Assembly: GCF_014356525.2 (NCBI RefSeq)
Contig: NC_052506.1
Span: forward strand, 8,921,698-8,985,697
Direction: 5' to 3'
DNA length: 64,000 nucleotides
Source: Nilaparvata lugens
Taxonomy: Eukaryota; Arthropoda; Insecta; Hemiptera; Delphacidae
Shown: positions 1,093 through 53,431 of the stretch, one piece after another
How the letters are laid out: every line of letters begins with the position of its first letter
Numbering within the stretch: the stretch's first letter is position 1
Program-made: the position numbers and the translations under genes
The notes under the pieces: model-generated
Seen by the model: the letters and a program-made list of their open reading frames with translations, nothing else
Told to the model about the DNA's origin: nothing
The model's database searches: none

Positions 1093-1303
1093 TTATTAAA
1101 AACAATATAAAACATGAAGTACCCTTTTATTTAAAACATTTTAAACTTTATAACATTTCAAACAACTAGTTTCGGCCTACTTTGGCCATTTTCAAGTTTA
1201 AATTTAGAATTTAAAGCTTCACATGTTTAAATAAAAGGGTACTTCACGTTTCTATATTTAAAAAAAAAATTAATAAAGTAGTCCTTATAAGTGGAGTAAT
1301 TTA
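1093..1303 (-). mobile_element. H1 fold-back element, copy 1, with hammerhead-like motif
   Basis: The arms AAGTACCCTTTTATTTAAA and TTTAAATAAAAGGGTACTT face each other around a central hammerhead-like motif on the minus strand, followed by an AT-rich tail containing AGTAGTCC. The target duplication AGGCTAGAATA (1082-1092) has a slightly altered partner on the right (AGGCTAGAGAATA from 1304). It lies in the first unit of the 800-bp duplication. Confidence 0.85.
1157..1202 (-). ncRNA. Hammerhead-ribozyme-like motif, H1 copy 1
   Basis: On the minus strand the order is: stem I 5' strand UUUAAAC, core UUGAAAA plus an extra U, stem II GGCC/GGCC with an AAAGUA loop, GAA, stem III AC-UA-GU, H17 = U, then stem I 3' strand GUUUGAA (seven pairs with stem I 5'). 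Canonical C3 and G8 are both replaced, by U and A, which could still pair. One nucleotide is inserted between A9 and stem II. Predicted cleavage lies between 1164 and 1163. Activity is not proved. Confidence 0.6.
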
Positions 1304-1456
1304 AGGCTAGAGAATAGTATCACCAGAAGAAATATCAGAACTTTGAATAAAACATATGATAAATAATAATTATTGAACTGATCATTCTGCCTTCTCAGAT
1401 ATAAAATGAAATGTTTTATTGACAGAAATATAAAATTACAACATCTTAGAAATACC

Positions 1457-1729
1457 TCAAAGAACAATAGCATGAGTAGATATCCCATGGTATAGGGCGT
1501 TTATGTCGCAACTTTTACTGTTATCTCAAGCCGATAGTCCACGTAGTTCTTTCCCGTGAAGCTGTGTGACGCTGGTAGTCTCTCATACTGTGCCGTTTAT
1601 ACACTCTCATCCCAACAAGACAGTAAAAACCGACAGTAATTGATAATAATCGGTTCGAGATAACAGTAAAAGTTGCGACATGAACGCCCTATACCATGGG
1701 ATATCTACTCATGCTATTGTTTCTCTATG
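1457..1729. mobile_element. M1 MITE, copy 2
   Basis: This matches M1 across TATAGGGCGTTTATGTCGC and its inverted partner near 1680-1700. The left terminus is altered (CTCAAAGAACAATAGC instead of CATAGAGAAACAATAGC). It is part of the 800-bp tandem duplication. Confidence 0.85.
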
Positions 1730-1891
1730 ATAAAACTTAATTATTACAATTTAATTTCAAGAATTGCACTAGCCTACTAACTATCCCCAATCAGTTTAAG
1801 CTTCAGAAATGGGCTTCAAGTTTCTTTTGGATTGTGAATTTTTTCAACGTTCAAAGGTTCTTGACTGAAGAGCACATAGTAGGCTAGAATA

Positions 1892-2102
1892 TTATTAAAA
1901 ACAATATAAAACATGAAGTACCCTTTTATTTAAAACATTTTAAACTTTATAACATTTCAAACAACTAGTTTCGGCCTACTTTGGCCATTTTCAAGTTTAA
2001 ATTTAGAATTTAAAGCTTAACATGTTTAAATAAAAGGGTACTTCACGTTTCTATATTTAAAAAAAAAATTAATAAAGTAGTCCATATAAGTGGAGTAATT
2101 TA
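1892..2102 (-). mobile_element. H1 fold-back element, copy 2, with perfect 11-bp target duplication
   Basis: This is the same element as at 1093, in the second duplication unit. Here both flanks are intact: AGGCTAGAATA at 1881-1891 and at 2103-2113. The 211-bp insert has inverted arms ending in AGTACCC/GGGTACT and a one-sided tail with AGTAGTCC. Confidence 0.88.
1956..2001 (-). ncRNA. Hammerhead-ribozyme-like motif, H1 copy 2
   Basis: The sequence is identical in all key positions to the motif at 1157-1202 (U3/A8, stem II GGCC/GGCC, stem III AC-UA-GU, H17 = U, seven-pair stem I). It is a duplicate and not independent evidence. Confidence 0.6.
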
Positions 2103-2254
2103 AGGCTAGAATAGTATCACCAGAAGAAATATCAGAACTTTGAATAAAACATATGATAAATAATAATTATTGAACTGATCATTCTGCCTTCTCAGATATA
2201 AAATGAAATGTTTTATTGACAGAAATATAAAATTACAACATCTTAGAAATACCT

Positions 2255-2526
2255 CAAAGAACAATAGCATGAGTAGATATCCCATGGTATAGGGCGTTTA
2301 TGTCGCAACTTTTACTGTTATCTCAAGCCGATAGTCCACGTAGTTCTTTCCCGTGAAGCTGTGTGACGCTGGTAGTCTCTCATACTGTGCCGTTTATACA
2401 CTCTCATCCCAACAAGACAGTAAAAACCGACAGTAATTGATAATAATCGGTTCGAGATAACAGTAAAAGTTGCGACATGAACGCCCTATACCATGGGATA
2501 TCTACTCATGCTATTGTTTCTCTATG
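2255..2526. mobile_element. M1 MITE, copy 3
   Basis: This is the duplicate of M1 copy 2, ending GCTATTGTTTCTCTATG. It is followed at 2527-2632 by an inverted copy of the sequence that precedes it (about 2145-2254), so the whole 2145-2632 region forms one large imperfect palindrome. Confidence 0.85.
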
Positions 2527-2676
2527 GTATTTCTAAGATGTTGTAATTTTATATTTTTGCCAATAAAACATTTCATTTCATATATGAGAAGGCAGAATGA
2601 TCAGTTCAATTATTTATTATATGTTCTATTCTAAGTTATGATATGGGATATCTACTTACGCTATTGTTTATCTATG
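2527..2676. repeat. Inverted copy of the M1 left flank plus an M1 end fragment
   Basis: From 2527 to 2632 the sequence (GTATTTCTAAGATGTTGTAA and onward) is the reverse complement of the stretch left of M1 copy 3. At 2639-2676 there is a solitary M1 terminus (GGGATATCTACTTACGC, then TTTATCTATGG). Confidence 0.8.
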
Positions 2677-3052
2677 GAAATACATAATAAAAGCAATACA
2701 AATTTTACAACATGGGAAAATACTATTACAAAATAAAATGCAATGCCAATTGAGTATTTGCATCTCGAGGCACTAGACCTGTTTGAGATGGTGATATAAA
2801 ATTGATTACAAAACTAGCGCTAAAATGTAGTTACTGAGGCCGACAGTCGCATATGAAGTGACACATATTACATAACAGTATCGATGATTTATCAATTTTA
2901 GCTTCGAAGTATATTGTACAATATTATGATAAACAAGTTTATAAGGCTACATGAGAATTCTAGAAAAGGCATCTATATTCTCACATTCCATTACAAATCT
3001 CTTAGCATCTCTCAAAAACCTTGATCGTATCTTGCCCTGATATTCATACATT
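2677..3052. other. No recognised feature
   Basis: This is AT-rich unique sequence in this window. I see no gene, tandem repeat or long inverted repeat. Confidence 0.4.
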
Positions 3053-3439
3053 ACTTTTTGCTTTTGGAAAAAACGACTAGCAGTCAGATATTTTCCAATA
3101 AATGAATTAATCACTCACTGTGACGAGATCTTTCGGCAGTTCCGCCATCTTCTTGGTTGTAGACACCTCTAGACAACCAAGAAGATGGCGGACCTGCCGA
3201 AAGATCTCATTGTCACAGTGAGTGATTAATTCTTTTGTAGACAGCTCTAGACAATCAAGAAGATGGCGGACCTGCCGAAAGATCTCGTTATCACAGTGAG
3301 TGATTAATTCATTTGTAGACAACTCTAGACAATCAAGAAGATGGCGGACCTGCTGAAAGATCTTGTTGTCACAGTGAGTGATTAATTCATTTATTGTAAA
3401 ATATCTGACTGCTTGTCGTTTTATCTAAAAGCAAAAAGT
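3053..3439. mobile_element. Fold-back element with expanded internal repeat
   Basis: The outer inverted termini are ACTTTTTGC and GCAAAAAGT, and the palindrome continues inward through CAGTCAGATATTTTCC and its partner at about 3400. Inside, a unit of about 90 bp holding AAGAAGATGGCGGACCTG occurs three times in direct orientation and once inverted. The short minus-strand frame here is a by-product of the repeat, not a gene. Confidence 0.78.
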
Positions 3440-3543
3440 GATTTAATAATAAGCAGTTCGTGATGGAAAACAACATTGAAGAATAATTCATACATTACAT
3501 TATCAATTACTCGGGAAACACAATCAAGTTTTTTCAATGCCTT

Positions 3544-3870
3544 GAACTAAAGTGCGAGATAAATTAATTTTAACACAGCTCTTTCTCGAAGACGGATGCT
3601 CTATCCTCCACTAATCACTCCCACTACCTAGCAGCATTCTAACGCGTCGCGCCAACACTCCCCTCCAGCTAGTGCCTGGCATTGTTCCAAAATCGTTTAC
3701 TGGTCAGGTATATTGGTTTGAGATGTTTCCATCACAAGAACATGAAGCAAAATGACACGGCGCATCCAATTGTGCGCAGGATGTCCGTCTGTGTCTATGC
3801 TACAAACTGTGGAGGGAGAAATGGGTTTCTCCTCTTCATGTTAAAAGTAATTTATCTCGCACTTTAGTTC
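3544..3870. mobile_element. MITE with GAACTAAAGTGCGAGATAAATTA termini
   Basis: The left terminus GAACTAAAGTGCGAGATAA and the right terminus TTATCTCGCACTTTAGTTC are perfect inverted repeats of about 23 bp. The 280-bp interior includes a GC-richer segment and no convincing coding frame. Confidence 0.75.
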
Positions 3871-5281
3871 CTAATTACTGAGAATCTCTTAATTTGCACA
3901 GTTTTATACGACTTGCAAGATTGTATCAAATGAAGTAGCGACTAGACCAGCTACGTTTTTTGTATCGCCCATTCAAATTGCTTGTAAATGAGAGGACTAT
4001 TGCGATGATAGTTATCAACTAGTCGAATCCCCGAATCGCTTCGACTAACGATGCTTATTTAGCATTTGCAAATGTCGGCAGGAATGTAGATGAGACTGTA
4101 GAAATGTAAAGTGAGTTCGAACACGTTTTTTCGGGTGGGCGTGAGCAAATAGAAGTGACAATGGTGTAATTACAGCGGTCCAAAGAAGCTCGTCGCTATT
4201 GAGTTTGCAAGATTAGAGATAAGCAAGTGTTGAAAAGAGCTGTGCTCTGTGTCTGGTCTGCCCCCAGGTGCTCGCTAATGAAAGTGAAGAGGAGAGTGAG
4301 AGGAGGGTATGCACTTTCCTTGAAAGAAGGAGAAGAAGTGAGGGATGCAGGCAGGTTCCCAACCCCACAGCTGAGTCAGCTATTGCATTGTTAGACGGCG
4401 GCGCCCTGTTCACACTCTTCTGTACTGAGGACACGGTAGGCACTTTGCTATCTTTTCTTAATCCTGTTTTCTGCTAACCACACACTAATTACCATCATCT
4501 ACTCGCGTTGAGAGCGTCGCAGATCAAGCCCACTTCACATATTTTAGCTGAACAACGTCTGCTTACTAAGTCTGAACAGAGTTCGGAACGTGTTCTAGAC
4601 AATACGAGCTATGGCTAGTGACAATCGACACTTCATCACTGTTTTTAACTGAATTTTGATGAAATTTCAAAATTGATAAGGAACCAACATGAGAGCAACC
4701 GATAAGAGTAAACGCGATCCACTGAATCACAAGACAAGTGATTCTTTGAAACTTACAAACATGGAAATCATCGGATCATTACTTAAAAAACTATTATATA
4801 CGATTTGTCACTTTGGAATATTTTTTCAATTTCAATTTTTTTTCAATTTTCAATTTATTTATTTATTTTAATTTTCACAATATTACAATTCACCAAGTAC
4901 ATATATAATAACCTCTCTAGCTATTTAGCTATTTGAGAGGTATACAGTTAGAAAATTCACAGACAATAATTATTTTAAAACAATTTGACATTTCCAATGA
5001 ACACAAAGCCAACAAAAGAAGTTCGAAAACAGTTCAGTACAGATTGTCGGTACACTTTTTTAGCATCCCACTTTGTCACAGTATTCTGATCACAGATATC
5101 CATACAGAAGGCATTTGCTGCCAACTTGATTTTCATCGTCTCAGCCACATTAATTAAGGATATATTCATACAGTGTGTTCTGAAAAAGATGTCCATAAGC
5201 CAGGGGGTGATTCCTCACATCAAAAGAAGAAAAAAGTTCTAATTAACGTCGGTACGAAAATGCTTAGTTACCAAGTTATAC
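3871..5281. other. Unique sequence, no gene recognised
   Basis: The part from about 4120 to 4480 is GC-richer and purine-rich, giving overlapping open frames on both strands with no family signature. The part at 4820-4880 is low-complexity T/A sequence (repeated TTTTTCAATTT). No inverted repeat or window-internal repeat was seen. Confidence 0.4.
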
Positions 5282-5556
5282 CATAGAGAAACAATAGCGT
5301 AAGTAGATATCCCATGATATAGGGCGTTTATGTCGCAACTTTTACTGTTTTCTCAAGCCGATTACTGCCGATTATTGTAGATTTTTACTGTTTTGACCGG
5401 GTAAGAATGTATGAACGGCACAATATGAGAGACTACGAGCGTCTTAGAGCTTCACGGGAAAGAACTACGTGGACTTTCGGCTTGAGATAACAGTAAAAGT
5501 TGCGACATAAACGCCCTATACCATGGGATATCTACTTATGCTATCGTTTCTCTATG
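5282..5556. mobile_element. M1 MITE, copy 4
   Basis: Complete M1 element from CATAGAGAAACAATAGCG to CTATCGTTTCTCTATG, with the TATAGGGCGTTTATGTCGC block and its inverted partner. No target duplication is obvious at this copy. Confidence 0.85.
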
Positions 5557-6621
5557 CTGTTACTTAACTTCATGAAACACCATCACATTCATAGGCCTAC
5601 CAGCCTACCCATCGTAATTACTGTAGTTATACAGAGTGAAAGATTTCGTCAGAATTTCAGTTCCCCTGCCCTGCGGGTATTTGTTGGCTGTTAATCAAGA
5701 TGTTGAATTCAGCGTGCTTTATGTAAAATGAACTGATAAATTGAATAAAACCGTTTCCAGACCGTTAGCTACAGTAGTTTTTAATATATGTGACGAAATA
5801 CGCGAAACTTGGTTCCGAAAAACAAGTTCCTTTAAGGTTTGAAGCAGATTTACTATGTTTAATGTACAATAAACACAAAATATTTTCCTACAGAACTTGT
5901 AGAAAATTTAATTTCGGAAAGAAAGATATAGAATAAGTCTATAATAGACAATCGCAACCTTGAAAAATAATCCTTAATTATATACAAAATGCATGAAAAA
6001 TAGACATAATCTGTTAAGCTCAAAAATGCTCAACAATTAATAGTTCAAAAATGAACCTATTTAATGAAGGAATCCTTATTTCAATTATAAACATCATTCT
6101 AACAATAAATATTTCTTCAGTTCATATGATATGGTATCTTTAATGGATATTGGTTTTTAACAAAGAAAATAGCATGCTTTGAGTATGGCCATCATGTATA
6201 GAATGATTAATTCAATACAATGAATTCATTCATTCAATTCAAATTATATGGCATCTTTAATGGTTATTGATTTGTACCAAAGAAAATAGAATGCTCTGAG
6301 TATGACCATAATGTATAGAATGATAAATAATTCATCTATTGATGCTGCTTTCTCATCTATTGATATTACTTTTTCAACTCGATTTTGGAGTAATAATACG
6401 CATTTATTTAATGATTAATTTATGTTATTCAATCTTTCAGAATTATACAACTTATAGAAAAGTACCACAGGCTAATTACGCCCAAAACGGTTCCAATTCT
6501 AATTGAAGCAGAATAAGTTAACCGCATCTCACTGACAACACACAAGGTTTCTTATGTTGGCAGTGCCAAATATTGCATTGATAATATTGTTATACTCAAG
6601 TTAAAATCAATGTCTATTTGT
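5557..6621. other. Mostly unique AT-rich sequence with a short tandem duplication
   Basis: A segment of about 85 bp beginning TATCTTTAATGG near 6134 recurs, diverged, near 6249 (both contain ATGTATAGAATGAT). Otherwise I see no gene or mobile element. Confidence 0.5.
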
Positions 6622-6757
6622 ATTGTATTTGTTGCAAATCTGGAGTGCAGAAAAATTTTTCCCGCACTAGAGCGGAAAAGTGATTCTTTGCGTTCTGTAA
6701 TCAGTGCAGCAATGGCCACTTTTCAACGTAACTGTAGGAAAAAATACTTCTAAATTG
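6622..6757. repeat. Interspersed repeat S2, copy 1
   Basis: This contains TTTTTCCCGCACTAGAGCGG and CAATGGCCACTTTTCAACGT. The reverse complement occurs at 21050-21190, near identical over about 130 bp. The origin is unknown; the copy at 21021 continues into a LINE-like tail (ATTCATT repeats). Confidence 0.7.
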
Positions 6758-7310
6758 AGTTAAAAAATAATTCAAAAATTACAAACTTTGAAAAACACTA
6801 TTTAGAACTAGCATTGAGTATCTTATAACGACTGCTGGCAATCAACCCCTTCACATTAGATATTAAGATAGAGACCGTCACAGGCTAGATCACTTTCCTT
6901 AATCAGCAAGAAACTAATCTAAATGGAGTGGGGGAAACAGAGGGGAATCGATGTTTCAGAACTCTTCGAATTTTGATGGTTACAGAGCAAGTTTCGGATC
7001 GAATGGCTAACGGATATCTTAAGTGGAATCATCTATTAAGAACAATGGCGGAGCTAAATATTGATTGCCACTTCCCGAGCCAAAGCAAGAGCATGGTCAA
7101 GTTTCAGACATGCTATCCGTTCCGAGAACTTTTACTAATGGCAAAGTACGCCATTGAATGCGGAATATTAATTTGTAATGGTAGTCGAGATCCAAGAATC
7201 TATGATTACTCGGGGTAGCCAAGTTCAAAGTTTAAGCAAATTGATGAAGAAATTAGCAACTCTATGCAGAAAATATACGAATCTTCCATTAATATTATTT
7301 ATTAATGTAA
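6758..7310. other. No recognised feature
   Basis: A plus-strand frame at 6928-7218 (96 codons) has no recognisable motif and no splice context that would favour coding. No repeat was detected. Confidence 0.4.
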
Positions 7311-7917
7311 AGGTGCGTACAGATTTACGCGCCGCGAACATAAGCAATTCACTTATAATCAGCTGATGCCAAGCTTTTTATATCTGTATCTTACCGTTTC
7401 TGTAAAAATACAGATATAGTCAGCTGATTAAAAGTGAATTACAAAATTAAATGAGCAATTCACTTTTAATCAGCTGATGCTAAGCTTTTTATATCTGTAT
7501 CTTACCGTTTCTGTAAAAATACAGATATAGTCAGCTGATTAAAAGTGAATTACAAAATTAAATGAGCAATTCACTTTTAATCAGCTGATGCTAAGCTTTT
7601 TATATCTGTATCTTACCGTTTCTGTAAAAATACAGATATAGTCAGCTGATTAAAAGTGAACTGCAAAATTAAATGAGCAATTCACTTTTAATCAACTGAT
7701 GCCAAGCTTTTTATATCTGTATCTTACCGTTTCTGTCAAAATACAGATATAGTCAGCTGATTAAAAGTGAATTGCGAAATTAAATGAGCAATTCACTTTT
7801 AATCAGCTGATGCCAAGCTTTTTATATCTGTATCTTACCGTTTCTGTAAAAATACAGATATAGTCAGCTGATTAAAAGTGAATTGCTCATGTTCGCGGCG
7901 CTTATATCTGTATGCAA
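7311..7917. mobile_element. MITE with GGTGCGTACAGAT-type termini and an internal palindromic satellite
   Basis: The outer ends are inverted: AGGTGCGTACAGAT with GCGCCGCGAACAT on the left, and ATGTTCGCGGCGC with ATATCTGTATGC on the right. Between them a palindromic unit of 111 bp (GCAATTCACTTTTAATCAGC and its inverted form) is repeated five times from 7344, 7455, 7566, 7677 and 7788. A relative with the same terminus is at 27302-27634. Confidence 0.85.
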
Positions 7918-8186
7918 CTCAAGAGATTGAATAGAATGGAGGAAAAAACTATTAGAACGTAGATATGGAAGCAATTCATAGTCAAAACCAGGTTTCTTAT
8001 CACAAGCTGATTTACAAAATACCTTGTTGAAATATGGGGAAAATTACTACAAAATTATCGGTAAAAATTCAGGCGAGATAATTTCCAGGTTTTCGAGGCA
8101 CTTTGAGAAGGGAAGACACGTTAAATGTCATTAGGATACGGGTCCTATAATTTGTACAATGATTTGATGTTCTAGTTTCCAGTGGG

Positions 8187-8375
8187 CTATAATGAAGTGA
8201 AATATATTGGATGAAATTGTAAAGTTTCTCTATCTCTATCAGTCTGTCAAGAAGGGACAGTTCAATAGAATTGCAGTCATTCTCAAAACTTTGATTCACG
8301 CTATAATGAAGTGAAATATATTGGATGAAATTTTAAAGTTTCTTTATTTCTCTCAGTCTGTCTAATTCTGTCTAT
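8187..8375. repeat. Tandem duplication, period 114 bp
   Basis: CTATAATGAAGTGAAATATA starts at 8187 and again at 8301, followed in both by TTGGATGAAATT and the TCTCAGTCTGTC-type sequence. The flanking TCAATAGAATTGCAGT motif also recurs to the right of the LINE fragments at 9400 and 9510, suggesting this was the pre-insertion flank. Confidence 0.75.
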
Positions 8376-8700: not shown

Positions 8701-8790
8701 ATGGGGAGGATATTATATTTTATATCCTTCTTAGGGAATCGACAATTATTTGTTAAAACACCGCCGATTTATGAAGTTACATTACAATTT
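8701..8790 (+). mobile_element. LINE 3'-UTR-like fragment
   Basis: TGGGGAGGATATTATATTTT and CGCCGATTTATG resemble the LINE 3' sequence at 37931-38217 (GGGGAGGATATTTTT, CGCCAATTTATG), diverged and truncated. Confidence 0.5.
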
Positions 8791-11030: not shown

Positions 11031-11118
11031 CAATGGCAGGCGATCATGCCCTTGACCAATAGCAGTACTCGCCTACTAGTATAAATTCTGCTGCTCTTGT
11101 ATTTAGTTTTAGTTTATC
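11031..11118 (+). promoter_or_regulatory. Putative RNA polymerase II promoter inside H2
   Basis: CCAAT occurs at 11032-11036 and 11058-11062, and TATAAA at 11082-11087. An initiator-like TCAGAG lies at 11116-11121, about 35 bp after the TATA box and exactly where the hammerhead-like motif begins. The same block is conserved in the copy at 41590-41660. Function is inferred from spacing and conservation only. Confidence 0.45.
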
Positions 11119-11158
11119 AGAGATTGACAATGGTGTAATAACCGAAACCGGTCTTTCT
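11119..11158 (+). ncRNA. Hammerhead-ribozyme-like motif, H2
   Basis: The order is stem I 5' AGAGA, core UUGACAA plus one extra U, stem II GGU/ACC with loop GUAAUA, GAA, stem III AC-CG-GU, H17 = C at 11153, then stem I 3' UUUCU (five pairs, one G-U). Positions 3 and 8 are U and A instead of C and G. Confidence 0.58.
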
Positions 11159-11525
11159 AAGTATCAATGAATCTGTGGTTTTTTGACAATATCTTAGTCT
11201 TTTTCATTTAATATGAATAATTACCACAATTTCAACTTCTCAACTAAACAAAAATAAAAAATAATATATAATTAAAAGTTAATCATTATTTTACAGTTTC
11301 AAGTGATTAGTGAGTGCTATTGTGTTATTCAATTTGGTTTGTAGACAATCTAAATTAAAACTTTTCAAATGTTTGGACTGAAAATTGGACCTGAATTCAA
11401 GTGTATGGAACATAACCTACTTTTTGGACAAAGTATAGTGTATAAATAACAATTCGGGGAAGACACAGTGCCTGATAGTCCTTTCCCAGTCATTTTTGAG
11501 AATTGGGTTCTGTTTAACAATAAAA

Positions 11526-22383: not shown

Positions 22384-22570
22384 CTTATTTATCTCTTTTC
22401 TGTACAGTGCTACTTTTTATAGAAATAGGAATGAAAATAAAAATCTCAGTACCATTTATGAATTATTTAATCACAACATGTTTCGGACATTGATGCCATT
22501 TTCAAGTGATCACTGTTGTGATTAATTAATTCATAAAGGGTACTGAGATTTTTATTTTTCTTTCTATTTC
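22384..22570 (-). mobile_element. H1 fold-back element, copy 3, with 15-bp target duplication
   Basis: TATAAAAATAACCAG flanks the insert at 22369-22383 and 22571-22585. The arms CTCAGTACC and GGTACTGAG enclose the hammerhead-like motif. The one-sided tail (ATCTCTTTTCTGTACAG) lies on the left. The duplication length is an upper bound because the flank is repetitive. Confidence 0.82.
22469..22511 (-). ncRNA. Hammerhead-ribozyme-like motif, H1 copy 3
   Basis: On the minus strand: stem I GAUCAC/GUGAUU (six pairs), core UUGAAAA plus U, stem II GG-CAU/AUG-CC with a bulged U, GAA, stem III AC-AU-GU, H17 = U. Positions 3 and 8 are U and A. Confidence 0.55.
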
Positions 22571-24944: not shown

Positions 24945-25327
24945 TCGAATTTTAAGCACCTCGCTTCTTTCATGAACAAGCTAATGAAAACCCGCGCGTC
25001 ATTTGCAAAGCTTCGATTGCCTGAAAAAATCGTCACGCGCAAAAATGGCACCAAAATTTCGTTGCCATCTATCGACATCGATTTGTTTGTCTACCTCTTT
25101 CTATTGTCAACTGCATGGTTGTATTGAACTAGATAATTGCTTGATTATTTTGAAAACTGTATCATTTGAAGCCAAGGCTCACATTCGAGTTATATTCTTA
25201 CATGCGGCTCAATAAATGAAAATTCATTCACGAGTCTATTTTGGTGAGGTATGAAAAATGGACACCCATTTTCATTATTTTAAAGCTACATTGTCTTATT
25301 CTTTCACGGTCGCAGCTTCACTTATAT
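24945..25327. other. No recognised feature
   Basis: Unique sequence. The plus-strand frame at 25003-25215 has no recognisable motif. Confidence 0.4.
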
Positions 25328-25470
25328 GGGCTACTTTTGTACAAATAAATAAAACAATATAAAAATCCTGTAGTACCCTTTATTATTAAAAACTTAAGAA
25401 TATTTCAACTGTTGAAATATTTTGAAGTTTTTAATAATAGAGGGTACTACAAGATTTTTATATTGTTTTA
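25328..25470. mobile_element. H1-like fold-back element lacking the ribozyme motif
   Basis: GTAGTACCCTTTATTATTAA and TTAATAATAGAGGGTACTAC are inverted, and the AGTAGCCC tail is present in inverted form at 25328. The central segment is AATATTTCAACTGTTGAAATATT instead of the hammerhead-like core. Confidence 0.7.
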
Positions 25471-26307
25471 TCAATTAATGAATAAAATATAATATTTGTA
25501 TTCAAACTATAAGCTCTACTTAAGGAAAACTTGGATCATTCTACTCCGATGACATTACTTCTACTTTGATACTCCATTTAAGCTGCATGGTTTGAACTAA
25601 AATATACTGAGTTTTTCTTATTTCGAATATGAAGTTAGACTTATTTATTTTCAATAGTTATTCCCAAACAAACTTTATTCAGTAAATACCCTTCAAATTG
25701 ATTCATCCATCACTTCACATAGAAAAGTATTGGAAATTATAAATAACCTACATCACTTCTAACCGTTTCCATAGAAAAGAATTGGAAATTATAAATAACC
25801 TCCATCACTTCAAACCGTTTCCATATAAAAGAATTAGGAATTATAAATAACCAATTAATATTCAGTTTTAACCAGAATTAGGTGGAACGGAAGGTGGGAG
25901 AATGCAGCCTGTCTGCTCTATTTCCAGCTGTTTGAAGTATTTCGTGACCTGTACGCCTGAGAAAGATTAGCTGAAAAAGAGAGCCGACCAATGAAAAGGA
26001 TGGAGGATGGGTTGCGATAACTAGAGAGGTGTCAGGGTGTACCCGGGTACTCTGCTCCCCCGAGGGGGTTCGACACCCCATTTCGCCCCGAATAAAAACG
26101 ACAACCAGTGAACTGAACAGCGCGAAACGAAGTTAATGGGGGGGCCAGGATAAATAGCTAATGAGGATCTGGCTTATTGAGCCACTGAAGCTCTCCCGCA
26201 TGCATCATAATCCAACATTCGTTCCGAAAGTCTATCAATCCGGATGTCGAGTGGGACACCTCAATGATTTCTGTGTCACTCGTATTTTGTTCATTCGCTT
26301 CTGATGT
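25471..26307. other. Unique sequence with a 53-bp tandem triplication
   Basis: GGAAATTATAAATAACC occurs near 25730 and 25785 and, as GGAATTATAAATAACC, near 25836, with CATCACTTC and CCGTTTCCATA between them. 25880-26150 is GC-richer. A minus-strand frame here (ending at 26158) runs into the satellite and is unproven. Confidence 0.5.
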
Positions 26308-29861: not shown

Positions 29862-30441
29862 TTCCTTTTTGGTCATAGTCATTCAATTTCAGCTGTATTA
29901 CACGCATGAATTGATCAAGCCGGTATATTATCAATATTTTTAGTTTAGTTATTATTTTTGAAGTGGAAATTGGACCTTTTGAAGTGAAAAGTGAAATCTT
30001 AACCTCATTCTTTTTTGAAACTTTTATTTGTAAAAAATTGGGAGAAGACAGTTTTCGGCTATGCCTGTTGTCTTCTCCCAATCATATTATTTATATTATA
30101 ATTATTATAATTTGTGATTGTCAATTAAATAAATAAATAACTGATTGTAGAACAAATAAACATATGATTCTCATTACAGCATACTATAAAATGTTAAATA
30201 AATAAATATACTGTAATAAAATCATAGGTTTTCTTTACAGTCGAGTATGTTTCCAAGTTCCGAAATAGGAACAACAAAACTGGTAAAAAAAACGCCTTTC
30301 AGCGCTCCAGGTGGAAATTTTGTAAACTACAATCAAGAATTCCTGATTCGGAATTTGTAAACTAGGTTATGTTTATAGAATGCATGTAGTAGCTTCAGCA
30401 CAAGCAGGTAATGTTTTCTATTTCCCAATTATTCTTCTTTA

Positions 30442-30657
30442 CTTTTTGTGTAGTTTAGGAGTTGATATTGTGGTAGGCCTAATTATTCATATTGAATGAA
30501 AAAGACTAAGAAATTGTCAAAAAACCACAGATCTATTGATATTAGAAAGACCGGTTTCGGTTATTACACCATTGTCAATCTCTGATAAACTGAGTTTATC
30601 TTTCTAAGTATCAATAAATCTGTGGTTTTTTGACAATTTCTCATTTTTTTCATTCAA
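30442..30657 (-). mobile_element. H2 fold-back element with 12-bp target duplication
   Basis: TATTCTTCTTTA flanks the insert at 30430-30441 and 30658-30669, and the uninterrupted site is seen in repeat G copy 1. The arms (AAAGACTAAGAAATTGTC / GACAATTTCTCATTTTTTT) enclose a hammerhead-like motif on the minus strand. The tail CTTTTTGTGTAG is on the left only. Confidence 0.88.
30545..30583 (-). ncRNA. Hammerhead-ribozyme-like motif, H2
   Basis: Same structure as at 11119-11158, read on the minus strand: AGAGA/UUUCU stem I, UUGACAA core plus U, GGU/ACC stem II, GAA, AC-CG-GU stem III, H17 = C. Confidence 0.58.
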
Positions 30658-30838
30658 TATTCTTCTTTAGATTATTATAACAAAAAATAGTGTACGGTAC
30701 TTGGACGTTAATGTATCTTGCAGGGCTCGAATGAATTCTAGTCTCGGCTAACGCCCCAACTGGAAACATAATTCTTGCCCTGCAAAAGGGCCCTTCCCGT
30801 CCATGTGACGTAAAATGCTATTACTCTATGATAGTACT

Positions 30839-41310: not shown

Positions 41311-41406
41311 ACTTTTTGTGTAGTCGAGAAGTTGATATTGTGATAATTATTCATATTAAATGAAAAAACTAAGAAATTGTACAAAACCACAGATTTATTG
41401 ATACTT

Positions 41407-41446
41407 AGAAAGACCGGTTTCGGCTATTACACCATTGTCAATCTCT
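41407..41446 (-). ncRNA. Hammerhead-ribozyme-like motif, H2 left arm
   Basis: Minus strand: AGAGA/UUUCU stem I, UUGACAA core plus U, stem II GGU/GCC (one wobble), GAA, stem III AC-CG-GU, H17 = C. Confidence 0.57.
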
Positions 41447-41677
41447 GATAAACTAAAACTAAATACAAGAACAGCAGAGTTATACTAGTAGGAGAGATTG
41501 TACTGAAAGTAAATTCTGTTATCATGACGAGTTTTTGCTTGAGCCGCCATTTTGTGACACCGTTTATTGGGAGGAGACTGTCAAACTGGGCCAATGGCAG
41601 GCATTCATGTTTTGACCAATAGCAGTACCGCCTACTAGTATAAATTCGCTGCTCTTGTATTGAGTTTTTAGTTTATC

Positions 41678-41704
41678 AGAGATTGACAATGGTGTAATAA
41701 CCGA
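41678..41704 (+). ncRNA. Hammerhead-ribozyme-like motif, H2 right arm, truncated by the gap
   Basis: AGAGA, UUGACAAU, GGUGUAAUAACC and GA are visible; the remainder falls in the Ns. Confidence 0.5.
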
Positions 41705-41804
41705 NNNNNNNNNNNNNNNNNNNNNNNNNNNNNNNNNNNNNNNNNNNNNNNNNNNNNNNNNNNNNNNNNNNNNNNNNNNNNNNNNNNNNNNNNNNNNNNN
41801 NNNN
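41705..41804. other. Assembly gap (100 N)
   Basis: Exactly 100 Ns, a conventional placeholder length, so the true size is unknown. Sequence resumes in a GAA repeat. Confidence 0.99.
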
Positions 41805-44056: not shown

Positions 44057-44787
44057 TATCCTATTATATTAAACGAGCAATTTCTGTATATATCTGGTTA
44101 TTTTTTTATCTGACTATTTTTATATCTGGTTATTTATGTTTTACGGATCTCGAAAACAGCTCTAACGATATTCACGAAGGTATCGTTACATAGTAGGTTT
44201 ATGATTTAGAGATTCGATTGCACTAGGTCTCATTCTTTGGAAAACTCGCTGAACGACATTAAAAGGATAATTCATCCTTGGAAAACAGATGATAATTTCG
44301 TCGTCTCTCGATAACAGAAGATGCGTGTGCCTGTGCGGGAGAGAGACAGAATTATTTCCAGCTGTGTAATCATAATCAATCAGCGAGAAATTTTATCTAG
44401 CTAAACAATTAAATCGATTTGATCAACATAATCTGATTTGTTGACATGACATGATAATCCTCCTAAACTAGAGTATATCATAATTTTCAAAGTTGATCAT
44501 TATTTGACAATTTCAAGTGATTAGTGAGTGTTATTTTGTTATTTAATTTGGTTTGTATATAATCTGAATTATAATTTTTTTGTTTTCAAATGTTTTAACA
44601 GAAAATTGAACCTTAATTCAAGTGTATGGAACATAACCTACTTTCTGGACAATTTATAGTGTATAAATCAAAATTCGGGAAAGAAACCGTTTTGGGCTGT
44701 GCTGTTAGTACTTCCCCAATCATTTTAAAGAATTGTGTTTGGTTTATCAAAAGTCAATAAATAAATAAGCTCGGTGCCCCGATATTT
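44057..44787 (+). mobile_element. Family A element, full length
   Basis: Starts TATCCTATTATATTAAACGA and ends AAGCTCGGTGCCCCGATATT. Contains GGATCTCGAAAACAGC, GGATAATTCATCCTTGG (a short palindrome), CGTCGTCTCTCGATAACAGA and the GTGTATGGAACATAACC block. No open frame is conserved between copies. Confidence 0.9.
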
Positions 44788-46267: not shown

Positions 46268-47106
46268 CTTAACGCTCATTATTTTTATTTAATGATAAAC
46301 AGAACAGAATTCTCAGAATTGATCGTGTTCAAATTTCACAGCTGGCTATATGTCATCTTAAGAGTTTAGGGGTTGCGATGTTTTGATTTCCCATAGAATC
46401 ATTCGCTCACTTTTTTTATCCACAGACGACGGAAGTCTCAGCTGTTTCAGACAAGGATGAATTATCCCTTTAATGTCGTTCAGCGAGTTTTCCCAAGGAT
46501 GAGACCTAGTGCAATTGAATTTTTATATCATAAACCTACTATGTTCCAAATTTCGTGAAAATCGTTAGAGCCGTTTTCGAGATCCGTTAAACATAAATAA
46601 CCAGATATAAAAATAACCAGATATATAAATACAGAAATTGTTCACTCACTTTTTTACTATTCACAGCTGTTTCAGCCAAGGATGAATTATCTTTTTTAAG
46701 TCGTTCAGCGAGTTTTCCCAAGGATTAGACCTTGTGCAATCGAATCTTTATATCATAAACTACTTTGTTCCAAATTTCGTGAAAATCGTTAGAGCCGTTT
46801 TCGAGATCCGTTAAACATAAATAACCAGATATAAAAATAACCAGATACATAAATACAGAAATTGTTCACTCACTTTTTTACTATTCACAGCTGTTTCAGC
46901 CAAGGATGAATTATCTTTTTTAAGTCGTTCAGCGAGTTTTCCCAAGGATTAGACCTTGTGCAATCGAATCTTTATATCATAAACCTACTTTGTTCCAAAT
47001 TTCGTGAAAATCGTTAGAGCCGTTTTCGAGATCCGTTAAACATAAATAACCAGATATAAAAATAACCACATATATAAATACAGAAATTGCTCGCTTAATA
47101 AAATAG
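46268..47106 (-). mobile_element. Family A3 element, copy 2, with internal triplication
   Basis: The right-hand 224-bp segment (TTCACTCACTTTTTTACTAT through CAGATATAAAAATAACC to ACAGAAATTG) is present in tandem, starting at 46641 and 46865, plus a diverged first copy at about 46406. The right end is CTCGCTTAATAAAATAGGGT. Confidence 0.85.
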
Positions 47107-47640
47107 GGTATGGGGTTATCGAGAAATTCGACTATTAACTAGAAATTTGATCTTAGTTTATTTAGGATAGATTTTTCTAGTAACTTCTCAGTACTGAACT
47201 AATCTTGTCTATTCAAGTTTCAGGAGGTGGCAATTTGTACAAAAATTTTGCCATGAGCTACAAAACTTGGAGCGTTTCTTGATCATTTGCAATGAGAAGT
47301 TTTAAGATGTAGCATGAAAAATTGCAGGAGGAAGAATGGGAGAGATGAAATACAGGATATTCGTAGGATTTCAAGGAGAGGGAGAAGTAGAATACAGCAG
47401 AAATAAAGATGCAGGGAACGTTTTTATCAGAAATACTCAAACTTTGTACAATATTGATCAATTGCCAACAAAGGAGAACTGAATTTCAAGAAATATAGAA
47501 ATATAGGATTTCAAGAAATATAGAAGAGGGAGAAGTAGAATACAGCAGAAATAAAGATGCAGGAAACGTTTTTATCAGAAATACTCAAACTTTGCACAAT
47601 ATTGATCAATTGCCAACAAAGGAGAACTAGATCCTATGGT
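47107..47640. repeat. Local direct duplication (about 130 bp)
   Basis: GGAGAAGTAGAATACAGCAG followed by AAATAAAGATGCAGG, and GATCAATTGCCAACAAAGGA, occur at about 47381 and again at about 47529. The rest of the interval is unique. Confidence 0.8.
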
Positions 47641-48177
47641 CAGTACAACTAACCATGCTACAAATCGTCTGGAAAAATTCAATAGCTATTGTTTTCCTGC
47701 TCACATATATGATAAAAATACGCTACTGAAACATAAGCTCAGTTATAGAGCGTGGAACACAAGTGGAGGCTTAACGGAATCTCGATAACTCTTCTGTTAT
47801 CTGTAATACTAGGAGCAGGGGTCCTTCGCAGCAGAAGTTTTGCTATTGCTAGCCGTCTTCCAGCTGCCATAAAACGCTTTTATTTTCCATGTCTCGATTT
47901 TATGGGCAGAGTCCTCTCAGGAAGTGGTCGAACAACGGGGGTCGCCTCGCCTCGTTCCCGCTAAGTATTGAGCCACAAGTGTTTCATAAACGTCCTATTA
48001 CGCAATGCCTCGTCCCATACATTCCCGATGGCTCTATATTCAGCATTCACTTTCTACACAAGCTGAATGGAATCTTTCCAAGAAGAAAAAATGGGAGACC
48101 AGTGTGGAAATGAAAACAGTTATAGCAATCTCGAGGACCATTTATACATAGAGAGGATTGAATTTGAAGTGATGTGC
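47641..48177. other. Unique sequence, no gene recognised
   Basis: GC-richer around 47810-47990. Two overlapping short frames show no motif. Confidence 0.4.
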
Positions 48178-48278
48178 TTACTATAACCTCAGTGTCCGGT
48201 TTCCCATTAGGGAACTTTGGACTATATACGGCGAGGTGGAACTACCCTTGAGTCTCCCCACCATTAAAAGCCATACGC

Positions 48279-48338
<60 letters not shown>

Positions 48339-48358
48339 TAGTAATAATAATAATAGGG
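48178..48358 (+). mobile_element. LINE-like 3' fragment K, copy 2, with long (TAA)n tail
   Basis: GTGTCCGGTTTCCCATTAGG and AAGCCATACGC as at 14582, followed by about 75 bp of TAA repeat (48281-48357). The tail length suggests a later or better-preserved insertion than copy 1. Confidence 0.65.
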
Positions 48359-48644
48359 GAGGAATCGAGCTTATTTCAATTCCTTCATTAGCAACCTTAG
48401 AAGCCTCCATTAGAAGCCTTCAATTCCTTCATTCCAGTTAATTAGAAACTTGGATAAATTGATGGATTAGAAGAACCGATATTCAGCAACACTGGAAGAC
48501 CAAGCCTACAATGAAAATGTATTCAAAATTACGTGAAATATGGACGGAAGGATATCAACGGTTTTCACTACAGTTTCGTATTTCAAAATAGTGGCTCTTT
48601 TTATACAACTTTATAAATATAATTTCCCCATTCGAATTTATGGT
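48359..48644. other. No recognised feature
   Basis: Short AT-rich segment with a partial local repeat of TTCAATTCCTTCATT. Confidence 0.4.
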
Positions 48645-49334
48645 TATCATATTATATTGATCGAGCAATTACTGTATATATTTTTATATTTGGTTTATTT
48701 ATATTTATTTATGGTTATTTATGTCCAACGGATCTCGAAAACGGCTCCAACGGCTTTCACGAAATTTGGAACAAAGTGGGTTTATGATATAAAAATTCGA
48801 TTGCAATAGGTCTCATCCCTGGGAAAACTCGCTGAAGGACATGAAAAGTATAATTCATCCTTGGAAAAACAGATGATAATTTCGTCGTCTGTCGATAACA
48901 GAAGATGCGTGTGCCTGTGTGGGAGATCAGCTGTGTAATCGATCAGCTTACCGTATCGCGCGAGAAATCTAGAAATTTTAATAGACTCGATCAAAATAAT
49001 CCGATTTGTTGACATGACATGGTATATCATAATATTATTCAAAGTTAATCATTATTTCACAGTATTAAGTGATTAGTGAGTGTTATTTTGTTATTCAATT
49101 TGGTTTGTAAACAATCTAAATTAGAACTTTTTTGTTTTCGAATATTTGAACTGAAAATTGGACCTGAATTCAAGTGTATGGAATAAAACCTACTTTTTGG
49201 ATAGTGTATAAATCAGAATTCCTGGAAGAAACAGTTTTGGGCTGTGCCTGTTAGTCCTTCCCCAATCATTTTGAAGAATTGTGTTCTGTTTATCAATAAA
49301 TAAATAACGTGCGAAGCTCGGTGCCCCGATATTA
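48645..49334 (+). mobile_element. Family A element, full length
   Basis: Starts ATCATATTATATTGATCGAG and ends GTGCGAAGCTCGGTGCCCCGATATT, with a deletion of the CCTAAACTAGAG segment present in the copy at 44057. Confidence 0.88.
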
Positions 49335-49672
49335 GATTGATGATTACATCAAGTGTAAAGATAATAATGAATAAAATGTGTCGTAGTCATATTCACGGCA
49401 TACTAATGGAGAGTCACAATGGAGAGCATTGTGAGAGAGTCAAGTAAGTCAAGACTAAATTTAAGTTAAGTATAGAAAAATTGAATTTACCGTTTGATCA
49501 GTCTACAAGAGCGATTTTGTTGAATTGAACTATGTTGATTAGTCAATATCGATAGTTCAATACGGTTCAAATTTGAATATAGATTTCAAAAAAAGGAGGG
49601 AATGTCTTGTTCCATCAAGAACAACTGTTATGTGAATACTATAGTCATCTCACTTCAAATAACACTCTAAAT
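49335..49672. other. No recognised feature
   Basis: Unique AT-rich sequence. Confidence 0.4.
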
Positions 49673-49850
49673 CTGCGTTTACACCAAAGTTATTAATAAC
49701 CAAAATGTTAATAACTTAATCCTTATAGATTCTATTAGATTGAACATAACTTATCATAAACATGATAAGCATATGTGTTTGTCAAGTTCCGTTCAATTTA
49801 ATAGAATCTATAAGTTTAACATTTTGTTAATAACTTTGGTGTAAACGCAG
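49673..49850. mobile_element. MITE with CTGCGTTTACACCAAAGTTA termini
   Basis: CTGCGTTTACACCAAAGTTA and TAACTTTGGTGTAAACGCAG are perfect inverted termini. The inner part (TTATAGATTCTATTAGATTG, TTGTCAAGTTCCG) is related to the interior of family B. Confidence 0.85.
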
Positions 49851-49967
49851 CTTAAATAAGAGTGATTATTGCATATAGTGCAGATACTACTGTAAAAGAA
49901 AACACAAATAACTTTGAATGAAAAAGACTAAGAAATTGTCAAAAAACCACTGATTTATTGATAATTA

Positions 49968-50006
49968 GAAAGACCGGTTTCGGTTATTACACCATTGTCA
50001 AACTCT
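49968..50006 (-). ncRNA. Hammerhead-ribozyme-like motif, H2 left arm
   Basis: Minus strand: stem I AGAGU/UUUCU (terminal pair lost), UUGACAA plus U, GGU/ACC, GAA, AC-CG-GU, H17 = C. Confidence 0.52.
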
Positions 50007-50015
50007 GAGTTTATC

Positions 50016-50055
50016 AGAGATTGACAATGGTGTAATAACCGAAACCGGTCTTTCT
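50016..50055 (+). ncRNA. Hammerhead-ribozyme-like motif, H2 right arm
   Basis: Plus strand: AGAGA/UUUCU stem I, UUGACAA plus U, GGU/ACC stem II, GAA, AC-CG-GU, H17 = C at 50050. Confidence 0.57.
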
Positions 50056-50156
50056 AATTATCAATAAATCAGTGGTTTTTTGACAATTGAATAATTACCA
50101 CAATATCAACTTCTCAACTACACACACAAAAAAAAAGAAGAAAAACAAATAACTTT

Positions 50157-51295
50157 CAGTTCTGATTTTCGTTCGACCATCAAAGTAGTTATTCGTTGAG
50201 GACAACTACTGCAGGAGTAATGCTATGAATATAAAGATCTATCCCAGCAACTGCAGAGAGAAACAATATACGTAGCAGGGTTGTAACCGAGTGAGTAGTT
50301 TCCTTTCGAATTGAATTTCCTGAGAAGAGTTTCCTGTAGGGGAGGCTTGTGGTGCATGCGCCTGTGTCGACTTTGCCTTGGCCTCGACCAGTGATTTACA
50401 GGTCTTTTACGGCGAGAGGAGCACTACTTTAACGGCCAGGCAAGACGAAAACGATGTTTACGCATTTCAATGGCCGAACACAGCGCGTATTGAACAACGA
50501 CCTCTACAAAATAAACGATCGTCGCGAAAATAAATTTTTATAACGGTAAATAAATATTTAAACATGTCCAGTGGATGTTGAAAGAATTGTTGAGAGGTGG
50601 AGAAACGGATGAACACTGCAAGGAATAAGTAAACTAGGGGGACGTTGGTGTTCCAAGTCCACGTTTGGGGATACAGCATCACATAAACAACGAGTGAAGT
50701 GTGCAGGGGTGATTTTAATAGGGGTAACACGACTTTGTCGTGAACCCGGCACACGTTTATTAGCGAGGAAACGGAAAGGGCTGATCCTTTTTATCATGCA
50801 AATCTCCAGGCGAACCTTACCTCGACTCAATCTCATAGCAGCGTAATGAAATTCATCAATTATTAACACCTAAACTATGACAATTTTCATTAGCCAAAAC
50901 TTGTCCGGTAAAAGTCTCGTCACAAACTGGACCGTCCGGGTCCCACGTGATAAAAGTTTCAGTTTGACCAGTCACCAGTTTAGCTCTACGTATGCACTGC
51001 AGCATCGTCTCATGCATAGGCATTATGCGACTCGTAAAAGCAAACAAGTGAATGAAACACTTTTACAAGCTGCAACCTACGTGCATGGTCGCCTCCTTCG
51101 AAGCTCGACTACAATCTACATTTTATTTCTACTCCCTGATGTATTCAAGTTTACTTCCGGCTATGTTATCAATTCTTATCCCCGTGAAACTAAATTCCAC
51201 TCTTATAATAGCCAGGTGAGTTACAGTTTCCGTTTCAATCCAAATTACGAGTATCATGTTACTCATACTAGTAGTTCTGTGAACAGTAGGAAATA
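50157..51295. other. Unique, GC-richer sequence with long spurious-looking frames
   Basis: A 159-codon plus-strand frame (50877-51356) and minus-strand frames at 50467-51047 overlap. None carries a recognised motif, and the plus frame runs into an H1-like element. No repeat was detected in 50157-51260. Confidence 0.45.
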
Positions 51296-51391
51296 TAACA
51301 ATATTTCAACGACTAGTTTCGACCATAACTTAGGTCATTTTCAATTTGAAATTTAATCATAAAAACGTATTAATTTGTATAAAAGTAGCCC
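51296..51391 (-). mobile_element. H1-like element, truncated, with hammerhead-like motif
   Basis: The motif is followed by an AT-rich tail and AAAAGTAGCCC, as in other H1 elements, but the AGTACCC/GGGTACT arms are missing. A family C terminal scrap abuts the left side. Confidence 0.6.
51303..51352 (-). ncRNA. Hammerhead-ribozyme-like motif, independent H1 variant
   Basis: Minus strand: stem I AUUUCAA/UUGAAAU (seven pairs above one A-G mismatch), core UUGAAAA plus U, stem II GACC/GGUC, GAA, stem III AC-UA-GU, H17 = C. The stem sequences differ from all other copies yet still pair, which supports the structure. Confidence 0.6.
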
Positions 51392-51417
51392 ATAGTAGCC
51401 TATTTCACAGAGCGTTT

Positions 51418-51566
51418 TTACTTACCTTGCCCTATTACCATAGCTAAGGAAAGTATTGCTTTCCGAAAAAAATTAAGGTACCCCAATTTCTATATTTCTA
51501 TACGTTTCAAGGTCCCCTGAGTCCGAAAAAGTGGTTTTTGGGTATTGGTCTGTATGTGTGTGTGTG

Positions 51567-51600
<34 letters not shown>

Positions 51601-52255
51601 CTGTGTACACGATATCTCATCTCCCAATTAACGGAATGACTTGAAATTTGGAACTTGAGGTCCTTTCACTATAAGGATCCGACACGAACAATTTCGATCA
51701 AATGCAATTCAAGATGGCGGCTAAAATGGCGAAAATGTTGTCAAAAACAGGGTTTTTCGTGATTTTCTCGGAAACGGCTCCAGCGATTTTGATCAAATTC
51801 ATAACTAAAATATTCATTGATAAGCTCTATCAACTGCCACAAGTCCCATATCTGTAAAAATTTCAGGAGCTCCGCCCCATCAATGCAAAGTTCGATTTTA
51901 GATTACCAATTATCAGGCTTCAGATACAATTTAAACAGAAAAAATCAAGTGGAGTAGATTGAGCATAAAAATCTCTACAATTAATGTTCAGTAACATTTT
52001 CACCTAAAATTGAAAATAGACTCTAAAATTCGAGAAAAAGTGATTATTCAATTGCAAATTATTGTTGATTCTATTAAATCATTCACTATGAAGAGATAGC
52101 AGACCTCATGTGTGTCTCCAGCGTTATTGCCCTGTCACCAGCTGGCTCAAATCTTTGAATAGTAGACTTGAGATGCGCGGGAACACTAGCGTCAGGTGAT
52201 CAATTTTCATAACGGCAAGGAAAGTTGTGTGAGTGCGCCACACCAGATTTTCACT
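51418..52255. mobile_element. Non-autonomous element with TTTCCTTRCC-type ends
   Basis: The left side (CTTACCTTGCCCTATTACCA, CTAAGGAAAGTATTGCTTTC) and right side (GGCAAGGAAAGTTGTGTGAG, GCGCCACACCAGATTTT) are partly inverted. The interior has TCCAGCGATTTTGATCAAAT, AAGATGGCGGCTAAAATGGC and a (TG)n tract at 51557-51602. No coding frame. Boundaries are approximate. Confidence 0.55.
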
Positions 52256-52392
52256 CTAATATTGGCGTATGAAGGAGGCTCCTTTTTCCTTCCATATTAT
52301 CCTTGAAATGCAAAATTTCCAAAAACCTTGTATATACGTCGACGCGCAATTAAAAAAGGAACATACCTGTCAAATGTCATGAAAATGTATTA
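52247..52392 (-). mobile_element. Family C fragment, copy 5
   Basis: TTTTCACTCTAATATTGGCG to CCTGTCAAATGTCATGAAAA matches the central part of family C. Confidence 0.8.
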
Positions 52393-53012
52393 CTTTTCGT
52401 GATATACCGGCTAACTAAATAAAATTTCCAATCAAGTGAATTATATTGTGAGGCAGAAGATTTTAAATGCAATAAACAGGAATTTTACTTCAAGAATGGA
52501 ATAAGTGATTAAAATATTCCATCATTTGTACAATCCAGGTGAGTTTCAACTCATAAATTTCGAATCAATACTGATATACTTTACAAGAACGACGAATTAC
52601 AACTGAAGAATTGAGCAGAACCCTTTCATCAAGAAGCTTAAAGTTCGAAAATGAATGAAATTTGAGTGGGAGGACCAGGCACTGGCAACTCTTACTTGGA
52701 AAAGCTGCCATTGAAAAGATATTCTTTTCGACTCAATGTTTCTCTGTTCGCTTTTCAAAGTGCCGCTCTTTACTTGGAGTGGTCATTAACCCTTGTTCTA
52801 TCGTAAAGTACAGCCGCTCGTGCCTCACAATGACTGCCTCTCTCTCACTCCTGGTCACCAAACACCCATTCCTCTCCACTGACCTATTTCAAGTAGCTTG
52901 GTAGACTGAATTGTTGTTTAAAGACTCATACAATTAATTATTTTTCTACTGATATTATAATCACTCAAGTGATCAACTAATATTTTAAAATATGTCATAT
53001 AGAATTTTCACA
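52393..53012. other. No recognised feature
   Basis: Unique sequence; the 80-codon frame at 52662 has no motif. Confidence 0.4.
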
Positions 53013-53251
53013 CCTATTCTATTATAATTAAAAGAGCAATTTCTGTATATCTGTTTATATTTTCATATCTGGTTATTTATGTTCAACGGATCTCGAAAAC
53101 GGCTCTAACGATTTTCACGAAATTTGGTACATAGTAGGTTTATGATATAAAAATTCGATTGCACTAGGTCTCATCCCTGGGAAAACTCGCTGAAGGACAT
53201 GAAAAGGATAAAAATTATTCATCCTTGGAAAAACATATGATAATTTCGTCG

Positions 53252-53431
53252 AAATAGAAAGAAAAATAAAAATCTCAGTACCCTTTATGAATTATTTAAT
53301 CACAACATGTTTCGGACATTGATGCCAATTTCAAGTGAAACATGTTGCGATTAAATAATTCATAAAGGGTACTGAGATTTTTATTTTTCTTTCTATTTCT
53401 ATAAAAAGTAGCCCTATACAGAAAAGAGATA
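53252..53431 (-). mobile_element. H1 fold-back element, copy 4, with 13-bp target duplication
   Basis: GATAATTTCGTCG lies at 53239-53251 and 53432-53444, and is single in other family A copies. The arms CTCAGTACCCTTTATGAATT / AATTCATAAAGGGTACTGAG are near-perfect; the tail AAAAAGTAGCCC is on the right. Closely related to the copy at 22384. Confidence 0.92.
53298..53340 (-). ncRNA. Degenerate hammerhead-like motif, H1 copy 4
   Basis: GAAAC-AU-GU-U is kept, but the core reads UUGAAAU (A9 changed) and stem I is shortened, so this copy is predicted to be inactive. Confidence 0.45.

Follow-up and report, generated by a model that had tools for sequence, protein, structure and literature searches.

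Minimal variants of the hammerhead ribozyme carried by Penelope-like elements (PLEs) were reportedly described by Cervera and de la Pena in 2014 and by Lunse, Weinberg and Breaker in 2017. The available parts of PMC6155905 and PMC7761336 depict PLE hammerheads as type I, dimeric motifs with a very short stem III, present in thousands of dispersed copies in animals. A stretch of 64,000 nucleotides from the genome of the delphacid Nilaparvata lugens (assembly GCF_014356525.2, contig NC_052506.1, positions 8,921,698 to 8,985,697 of the forward strand; hereafter the window) contains ten full hammerhead-like motifs that share with these PLE ribozymes the minimal type I motif, a stem III of about two pairs and a hexamer suited to dimer formation. 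They differ in the pair formed by core positions 3 and 8, which is U3-A8 in 20 of the 22 copies recovered from the window and from further sampled sequence of the same genome. These copies are probably minimal type I hammerhead-like ribozymes located at the pseudo-long terminal repeat (pLTR) or 5′ end of PLEs, in which U3-A8 would be compensated and competent, a reading drawn from comparison of the copies with one another and with published elements.

The double change itself has precedent. Natural hammerheads with U3-A8 covariation were reported in 2011, and the accessible text of that paper credits the in-vitro activity of U3-A8 hammerheads to Przybilski and Hammann 2007 (PMC3088659). The same two bases are exchanged in both cases, an additional U in the core being a feature of the present copies, and the parts of PMC3088659 covered do not call those ribozymes PLE motifs. 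No report of a PLE with U3-A8 was found in the literature searched, which is weak evidence, the 2014 and 2017 PLE hammerhead papers lying outside its coverage. Animal retrozymes resemble the present inserts in being small retroelements that are non-coding and carry type I hammerheads but, in the part of PMC7229834 available, form circular-RNA units of about 170-400 nt, whereas most of the ribozymes in N. lugens occur singly, in inverted inserts of PLE type. The motifs are of a known kind, namely PLE-type hammerheads with a core swap already known from other hammerheads; worth recording is the prevalence of U3-A8 here beside a C3-G8 family with the same arm and tail motifs.

A close match in layout is the Anolis element PAc, whose start codon opens at stem II; C3 and G8 precede it, and the cut lies 26 bp downstream (PMC11167929). 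These published features would fit an order of CUGAAG, AUG and stem II, and would thus imply the same extra U. Like PAc, the present copies have an AUG where stem II begins, with positions 3 and 8 just before it and a cut spacing of about 26 nt (26 nt in family F1, 24 nt in F5). In contrast to the C3-G8 pair of PAc, they are mostly U3-A8, and their AUG opens at most 21 codons.

The searches covered 356 kb, comprising the window and 292 kb sampled elsewhere in the same genome (L-numbered loci denote the sampled stretches). A covariance model, R1, built from the first 11 copies (9 distinct rows), retrieved 22 copies at an inclusion cut-off of E ≤ 0.001, of which 11 are in the window, including a degraded one at 53296-53340, and 11 in the sampled genome. 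Nine of the ten full window motifs are U3-A8 and one is C3-G8. A stem-aware scan (requiring stem II and no fewer than 4 of the 6 pairs of stem I), with thresholds chosen once the copies were already known, returned 10 copies in the window, whereas 60 Markov-1 resamplings together gave 3 hits (0.05 expected). A gapped core pattern, with 11 bases fixed and 2 allowed either of two letters, matched the window 12 times, where 100 shuffles gave 0.32 matches on average; two of the 12 matches, 32982 and 33368, were judged non-hammerhead. All nine motifs listed in the first-pass annotation are present, eight reading UUGANAA and that at 63178 (minus strand) CUGAAGA, and three copies absent from that list were added, one full (1955-2002, the tenth), one degraded (53296-53340, UUGAAAU) and one partial (41683-41702). 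Hits outside the 22 are this partial copy (U-A, E 0.0025), L141 (U-A, A9 to U, E 0.005), L145:5773 (U-A with weak stems, E 0.07), L122:1374 (aligned C-A, E 0.19) and L122:1292 (U-A, E 0.57); weaker R1 hits were regarded as chance. Some copies are named below by their position 3, namely 22505 (22467-22513), 50001 (49964-50009), 51344 (51303-51352), 53334 (53296-53340) and 63178 (63141-63186). Relatives were also sought in IMG/VR (at least 120 stretches); of 128 matches in the loci retrieved, 4 had the GU at the expected position, none of them with more than 3 of the 6 pairs of stem I, and these were attributed to chance.

Each copy follows the order stem I, Y3 UGA N R8 A9, an unpaired U, stem II, GAA, AC NN GU, H17 and stem I again. 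The fixed segment GAAACNNGU and the stem II variants GGCC/GGCC, GACC/GGUC, GGUG/CACC and GGU/ACC were found as first described, copy 22505 having only GG/CC. Stem I has pair runs of 4-7, its first pair being mismatched in 50001 and 51344, and stem III consists of only 2 pairs within a hexamer that is self-complementary in 16/22 copies. Three stems surround the core, position 17 is C in 14 copies, U in six and A in two, in keeping with an NUH before the predicted cut, and the A15.1-U16.1 pair is retained in 18/18 distinct rows. The exact canonical core (C3 U4 G5 A6 N7 G8 A9 ... G12 A13 A14) occurs in two copies, 63178 and L124, and the other 20 carry the compensated U3/A8. The extra U separating A9 from stem II, unremarked in the first-pass annotation, is present in 22/22 copies, whereas in the canonical ribozyme A9 directly precedes pair 10.1-11.1. 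Because of this universal insertion the copies are a PLE-type hammerhead variant; the original designation as hammerheads holds for the overall fold, whose stems covary, but not for an unmodified hammerhead, as the extra U and the silence of Rfam indicate. Together with A9 and G10.1 the extra U forms an AUG in 21 of the 22 copies. The idea that A8 was retained since AAAAUGG is a better start context was ruled out for these copies because the AUG opens so few codons. The A9 to U change (UUGAAAU-U) is common to two families, occurring at 53328 and in L141 near 3341.

The first-pass annotation suggested that C3-G8 had changed jointly to U3-A8 under selection in several diverged lineages. The 22 copies are 20 U3-A8 and two C3-G8 with no mixed pair, and among the 18 distinct rows 16 are U-A, two are C-G and none is unpaired. 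Other core damage occurs with the 3-8 pair intact, as in L149:1376 (A6 to U), L132 (A6 to G) and 53296 (A9 to U). The joint change stands, but as a weaker case than claimed, since the 22 copies collapse to about eight sequence families, one of which, F3, contributes 12 copies. Five of the nine U-A copies in the window belong to F3, and two of these five (49968 and 50016) lie in one palindromic insertion. With only two states of the pair and more than half of the copies in one family, what is seen amounts to one or two events observed many times. A founder effect, in which every U-A copy goes back to a single ancestral PLE that had gained U3 and A8, would explain this without saying anything about selection or activity, and is possible though unlikely. 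Eleven other core-covering F3 matches are 82-97% identical to the L146 copy; at this identity only about 1-2 changes at positions 3 and 8 are estimated for 12 copies in the absence of selection, so that finding none is not significant. A single founder fits poorly, however, with the distribution of the pair among arm types: the group with a GGGTACT-type arm and GTAGCCC tail holds both C-G members (63178, L124:9755) and U-A members, while F3, which has neither motif, is U-A. Provided that these members form a single clade with C-G as the ancestral state, the pair would have had to switch twice, or to switch once and revert. Stems I and II moreover keep covarying among the U-A families.

Both stems covary. 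In the alignment of 9 distinct rows, 83.0% of cells are paired against 71.2 ± 2.4 in shuffled and 27-52% in slid alignments, and 9 of 15 pairs are altered on both sides. The 18-row alignment gave 82.5% against 68.4 ± 1.7 shuffled; this alignment was fitted to the model, and 7 of 500 shuffles attained its pairs-changed measure. The statistical weight lies with the stems and not with the 3-8 pair. Stem I could have been a by-product of the palindromes in which many copies sit, but this was ruled out for 4 of the 20 copies examined (22505, 63178, L149:3195 and L141) because 8-9 nt separate the inverted arm from position 3. Elsewhere the gap is 16 nt in F1, 4 nt in L124, 19-20 nt in the F3 palindromes and 2 nt in 53334, and the remaining copies have no convincing inverted arm (arm scores 15-18 for other F3, 16 for F4, 20 for L148 and 37 for L132).

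Whether an A8 form can cleave had been questioned on the ground that G8 is catalytic. The proposed general acid of the hammerhead is the 2′-OH of residue 8 (PMC6155905, in the part available) and not its base; since A8 retains this group, it would not be disabling in principle. In the Anolis PLE, the single changes C3G and G8C each abolish cleavage and together partly restore it, cleavage occurring only with protein (PMC11167929).

The host elements look like PLEs, to judge from their one-sided tails, inverted arms, target duplications and a weak GIY-YIG match, although an intact element is not among the copies seen. According to the available part of PMC3846280, pLTRs are inverted, mostly head to head, with an optional 31-bp tail on one and a TATA box. 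The Anolis PLE cuts and extends on both target strands, reverse transcription starts 111-118 bp into the open reading frame (ORF), and a tail of 30-40 bp lies between two start sites (PMC11167929). The present inserts share the inverted copies and the optional tail at one end with these published elements, and F3 has a TATAAA 36 nt upstream of stem I. Palindromes enclose 7/10 motifs (BLAST of the window against itself); three of them have folds much more stable than those of shuffled sequence (z -11.0, -14.75 and -9.4), and the F4 copy folds no better than shuffled (z -0.65).

Exact target duplications of 12-14 bp flank 5 of the 12 elements tested, of which four are window inserts and the fifth lies in L129; they are longer than the 8-10 bp of rotifer elements given in the available text of PMC3846280. 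Two of the window inserts are head-to-head F3 copies: 49916-50144, with 12-bp duplications at 49904-49915 and 50145-50156 and ends at +80 (left) and +118 (right) counted from the A of the AUG, and 30442-30657, with 12-bp duplications at 30430-30441 and 30658-30669. The F2 insert 53252-53431 has 13-bp duplications (53239-53251 and 53432-53444), an untailed end at +77 and a 33-nt tail at the other end, and a clean empty site for it is seen in two of four related repeats displayed (44230-44350 and 48840-48960). The F5 insert 63082-63264 has 14-bp duplications (63068-63081 and 63265-63278), an untailed end at +91 and a 28-nt tail. Untailed ends thus fall at +77, +80 and +91, and tails of 33, 38 and 28 nt bring the tailed ends to +110, +118 and +119 (+112 in the relative L124), against the Anolis start at 111-118 nt. 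Long inverted repeats in several copies per 64 kb would also suit miniature inverted-repeat transposable elements or other DNA transposons with an incidental likeness to hammerheads. This is highly improbable because the duplications are 12-14 bp and one end is tailed and the other untailed; a GIY-YIG-like piece also lies upstream of one relative. Hairpins with GGGTACT arms and GTAGCCC tails but without an apex ribozyme were observed at 25316-25476 and L129:4086-4169, the latter with a 12-bp target duplication.

Eight start points of F3 copies that begin within or past the ribozyme were inspected, too small a number to prove cleavage; relative to the predicted cut they lie at -7 (three, in one array), -2, 0, +8, +46 and +58. 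L149:4544 starts exactly at the first base past the cut, as a cleaved template would leave it, and copy 30599 two bases before it. The exact start is suggestive, but it is a single event, which could equally come from annealing of the self-complementary hexamer or from reverse transcription being arrested by the folded ribozyme. In 4/20 copies the copy with the ribozyme reaches 8-9 nt upstream of position 3, as far as the outer end of stem I, a hint that the template RNA has its start at this point; the F1 (16 nt) and F3 palindromes (19-20 nt) fit such a start poorly.

Several observations weigh against placing competent U3-A8 ribozymes in PLEs. Regarding the host, the 67-aa piece at L142:3794-3994, upstream of the ribozyme in the longest F3 relative, matches PF01541 (GIY-YIG) at E 0.013 and 16.2 bits, below the Pfam cut-off of 22.6 and at a single locus. 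The same piece found nothing significant in PDB (best E 0.78) and, in protein searches, one 91-aa protein as its sole relative, and no reverse transcriptase domain was seen among three ORFs scanned with Pfam. The upstream frames of L142 presumably resemble PLE. Seven of the 12 elements tested are without a clear target duplication (8 bp, none, or ambiguous in a tandem repeat), and one measured insert end (30442-30657) lies at +131. Regarding the ribozyme, the 3-8 pair occurs in only two states, hence the one or two switch events, and the decayed, sub-threshold hit L122:1374 aligned as C3-A8. The extra core U is absent from the hammerhead consensus. Rfam hammerhead models gave no match over the whole window at gathering score, where only a tRNA was found, and none at E ≤ 10 in 63080-63240 and 51270-51400, the only stretches tried at this relaxed threshold. 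The window inserts retain uncut ribozyme sequence, and the Anolis PLE ribozyme is uncut without protein, its mutants leaving in-vitro insertion unaffected (PMC11167929). In region L122:1292-1416 each strand has one such hammerhead-like hit, both of them weak and decayed.

The retained uncut sequence, the extra U with the silent Rfam models and the equally efficient insertion of ribozyme mutants in Anolis would also suit a relic, or a binding site whose conservation serves binding of the PLE protein or priming and not cutting, as would the Anolis reads, none of which starts or stops at the cut site (PMC11167929). We regard this as rather unlikely, given that families with differing loops and flanks all conserve the core bases and the 3-8 pair as well as both stems, and that two of the eight F3 start points lie at or two bases before the cut.

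Under the favoured reading of the copies as ribozymes of PLEs, short PLE insertions would have scattered the motifs through the genome, many of them inverted head to head. The RNA would fold as a hammerhead in which stem III is a self-complementary hexamer (ACUAGU, ACCGGU or ACAUGU) common to two ribozymes in a dimer. Cleavage would follow position 17 and would be slow or depend on bound PLE protein. U3-A8 would be the compensated, still competent form of the C3-G8 pair because residue 8 supplies its 2′-OH and pairing and not a particular base. Reverse transcription would begin some 77-91 or 110-119 nt beyond the AUG, with copying both ways into the target. A stronger version, that several PLE families switched from C3-G8 to U3-A8 at least twice independently on an extra-U hammerhead, that A8 ribozymes are active in vivo, either as dimers or together with the PLE protein, and that arms ending at or near the cut are the trace of this cleavage, is put forward tentatively and is rather unlikely.

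The individual copies are placed as follows in the window, which has 34.8% G+C, six ORFs of at least 120 aa and one tRNA-Ala. The F1 ribozyme at 1156-1203 (minus strand; UUGAAAA, stem II GGCC/GGCC, stem III ACUAGU, predicted cut after U) has a second copy at 1955-2002 (minus) within a tandem duplication 99% identical to the first. F3 ribozymes are found at 11116-11161 (plus; UUGACAA, stem III ACCGGU, predicted cut after C), at 30541-30586 (minus) inside the palindromic insert, at 41404-41449 (minus), and at 49964-50009 (minus) and 50013-50058 (plus), which form the left and right arms of the insert 49916-50144, head to head. The partial F3 copy at 41683-41702 (plus; U3-A8), which faces 41404-41449, stops at a run of N (41705-41804) directly after it, probably an assembly gap at a palindrome. 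F2 is represented by 22467-22513 (minus; UUGAAAA, stem III ACAUGU), which occupies the apex of a palindrome of 165 nt, and by the degraded copy at 53296-53340 (minus), with A9 changed to U and U3-A8 retained. F4 lies at 51303-51352 (minus; UUGAAAA, stem II GACC/GGUC) and F5, with the C3-G8 core CUGAAGA, at 63141-63186 (minus).

In addition, several repeats were observed. An array of about 8.6 tandem units of 120 bp (57137-58165) is F3-like from stem III (ACCGGUC) to the 3′ end and contains no ribozyme core; its right end (58157) joins an inverted copy, with ACCGGT at the palindrome centre. The tandem duplication at 673-2529, with a unit of about 797 bp bearing the F1 ribozyme and 99% identity in the ribozyme-bearing part, also has an inverted repeat of about 270 nt whose relatives lie at 5273, 34015, 42930 and partly 62654. 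Further tandem repeats are found at 7343-7886, where a 111-bp unit that is itself an inverted repeat occurs 4.9 times, and at 58555-61088, with a spacing of about 1595 bp and about 98-99% identity.

Hammerheads are conserved in PLEs, and the ribozyme of the one PLE tested in PMC11167929, that of Anolis, needed protein to cut. The C3-G8 and U3-A8 forms that stand side by side in related elements of N. lugens constitute a natural set for testing how strongly base 8 matters, and the same set bears on a possible link between the extra U and the protein requirement and on any use of the ribozyme in transposition.

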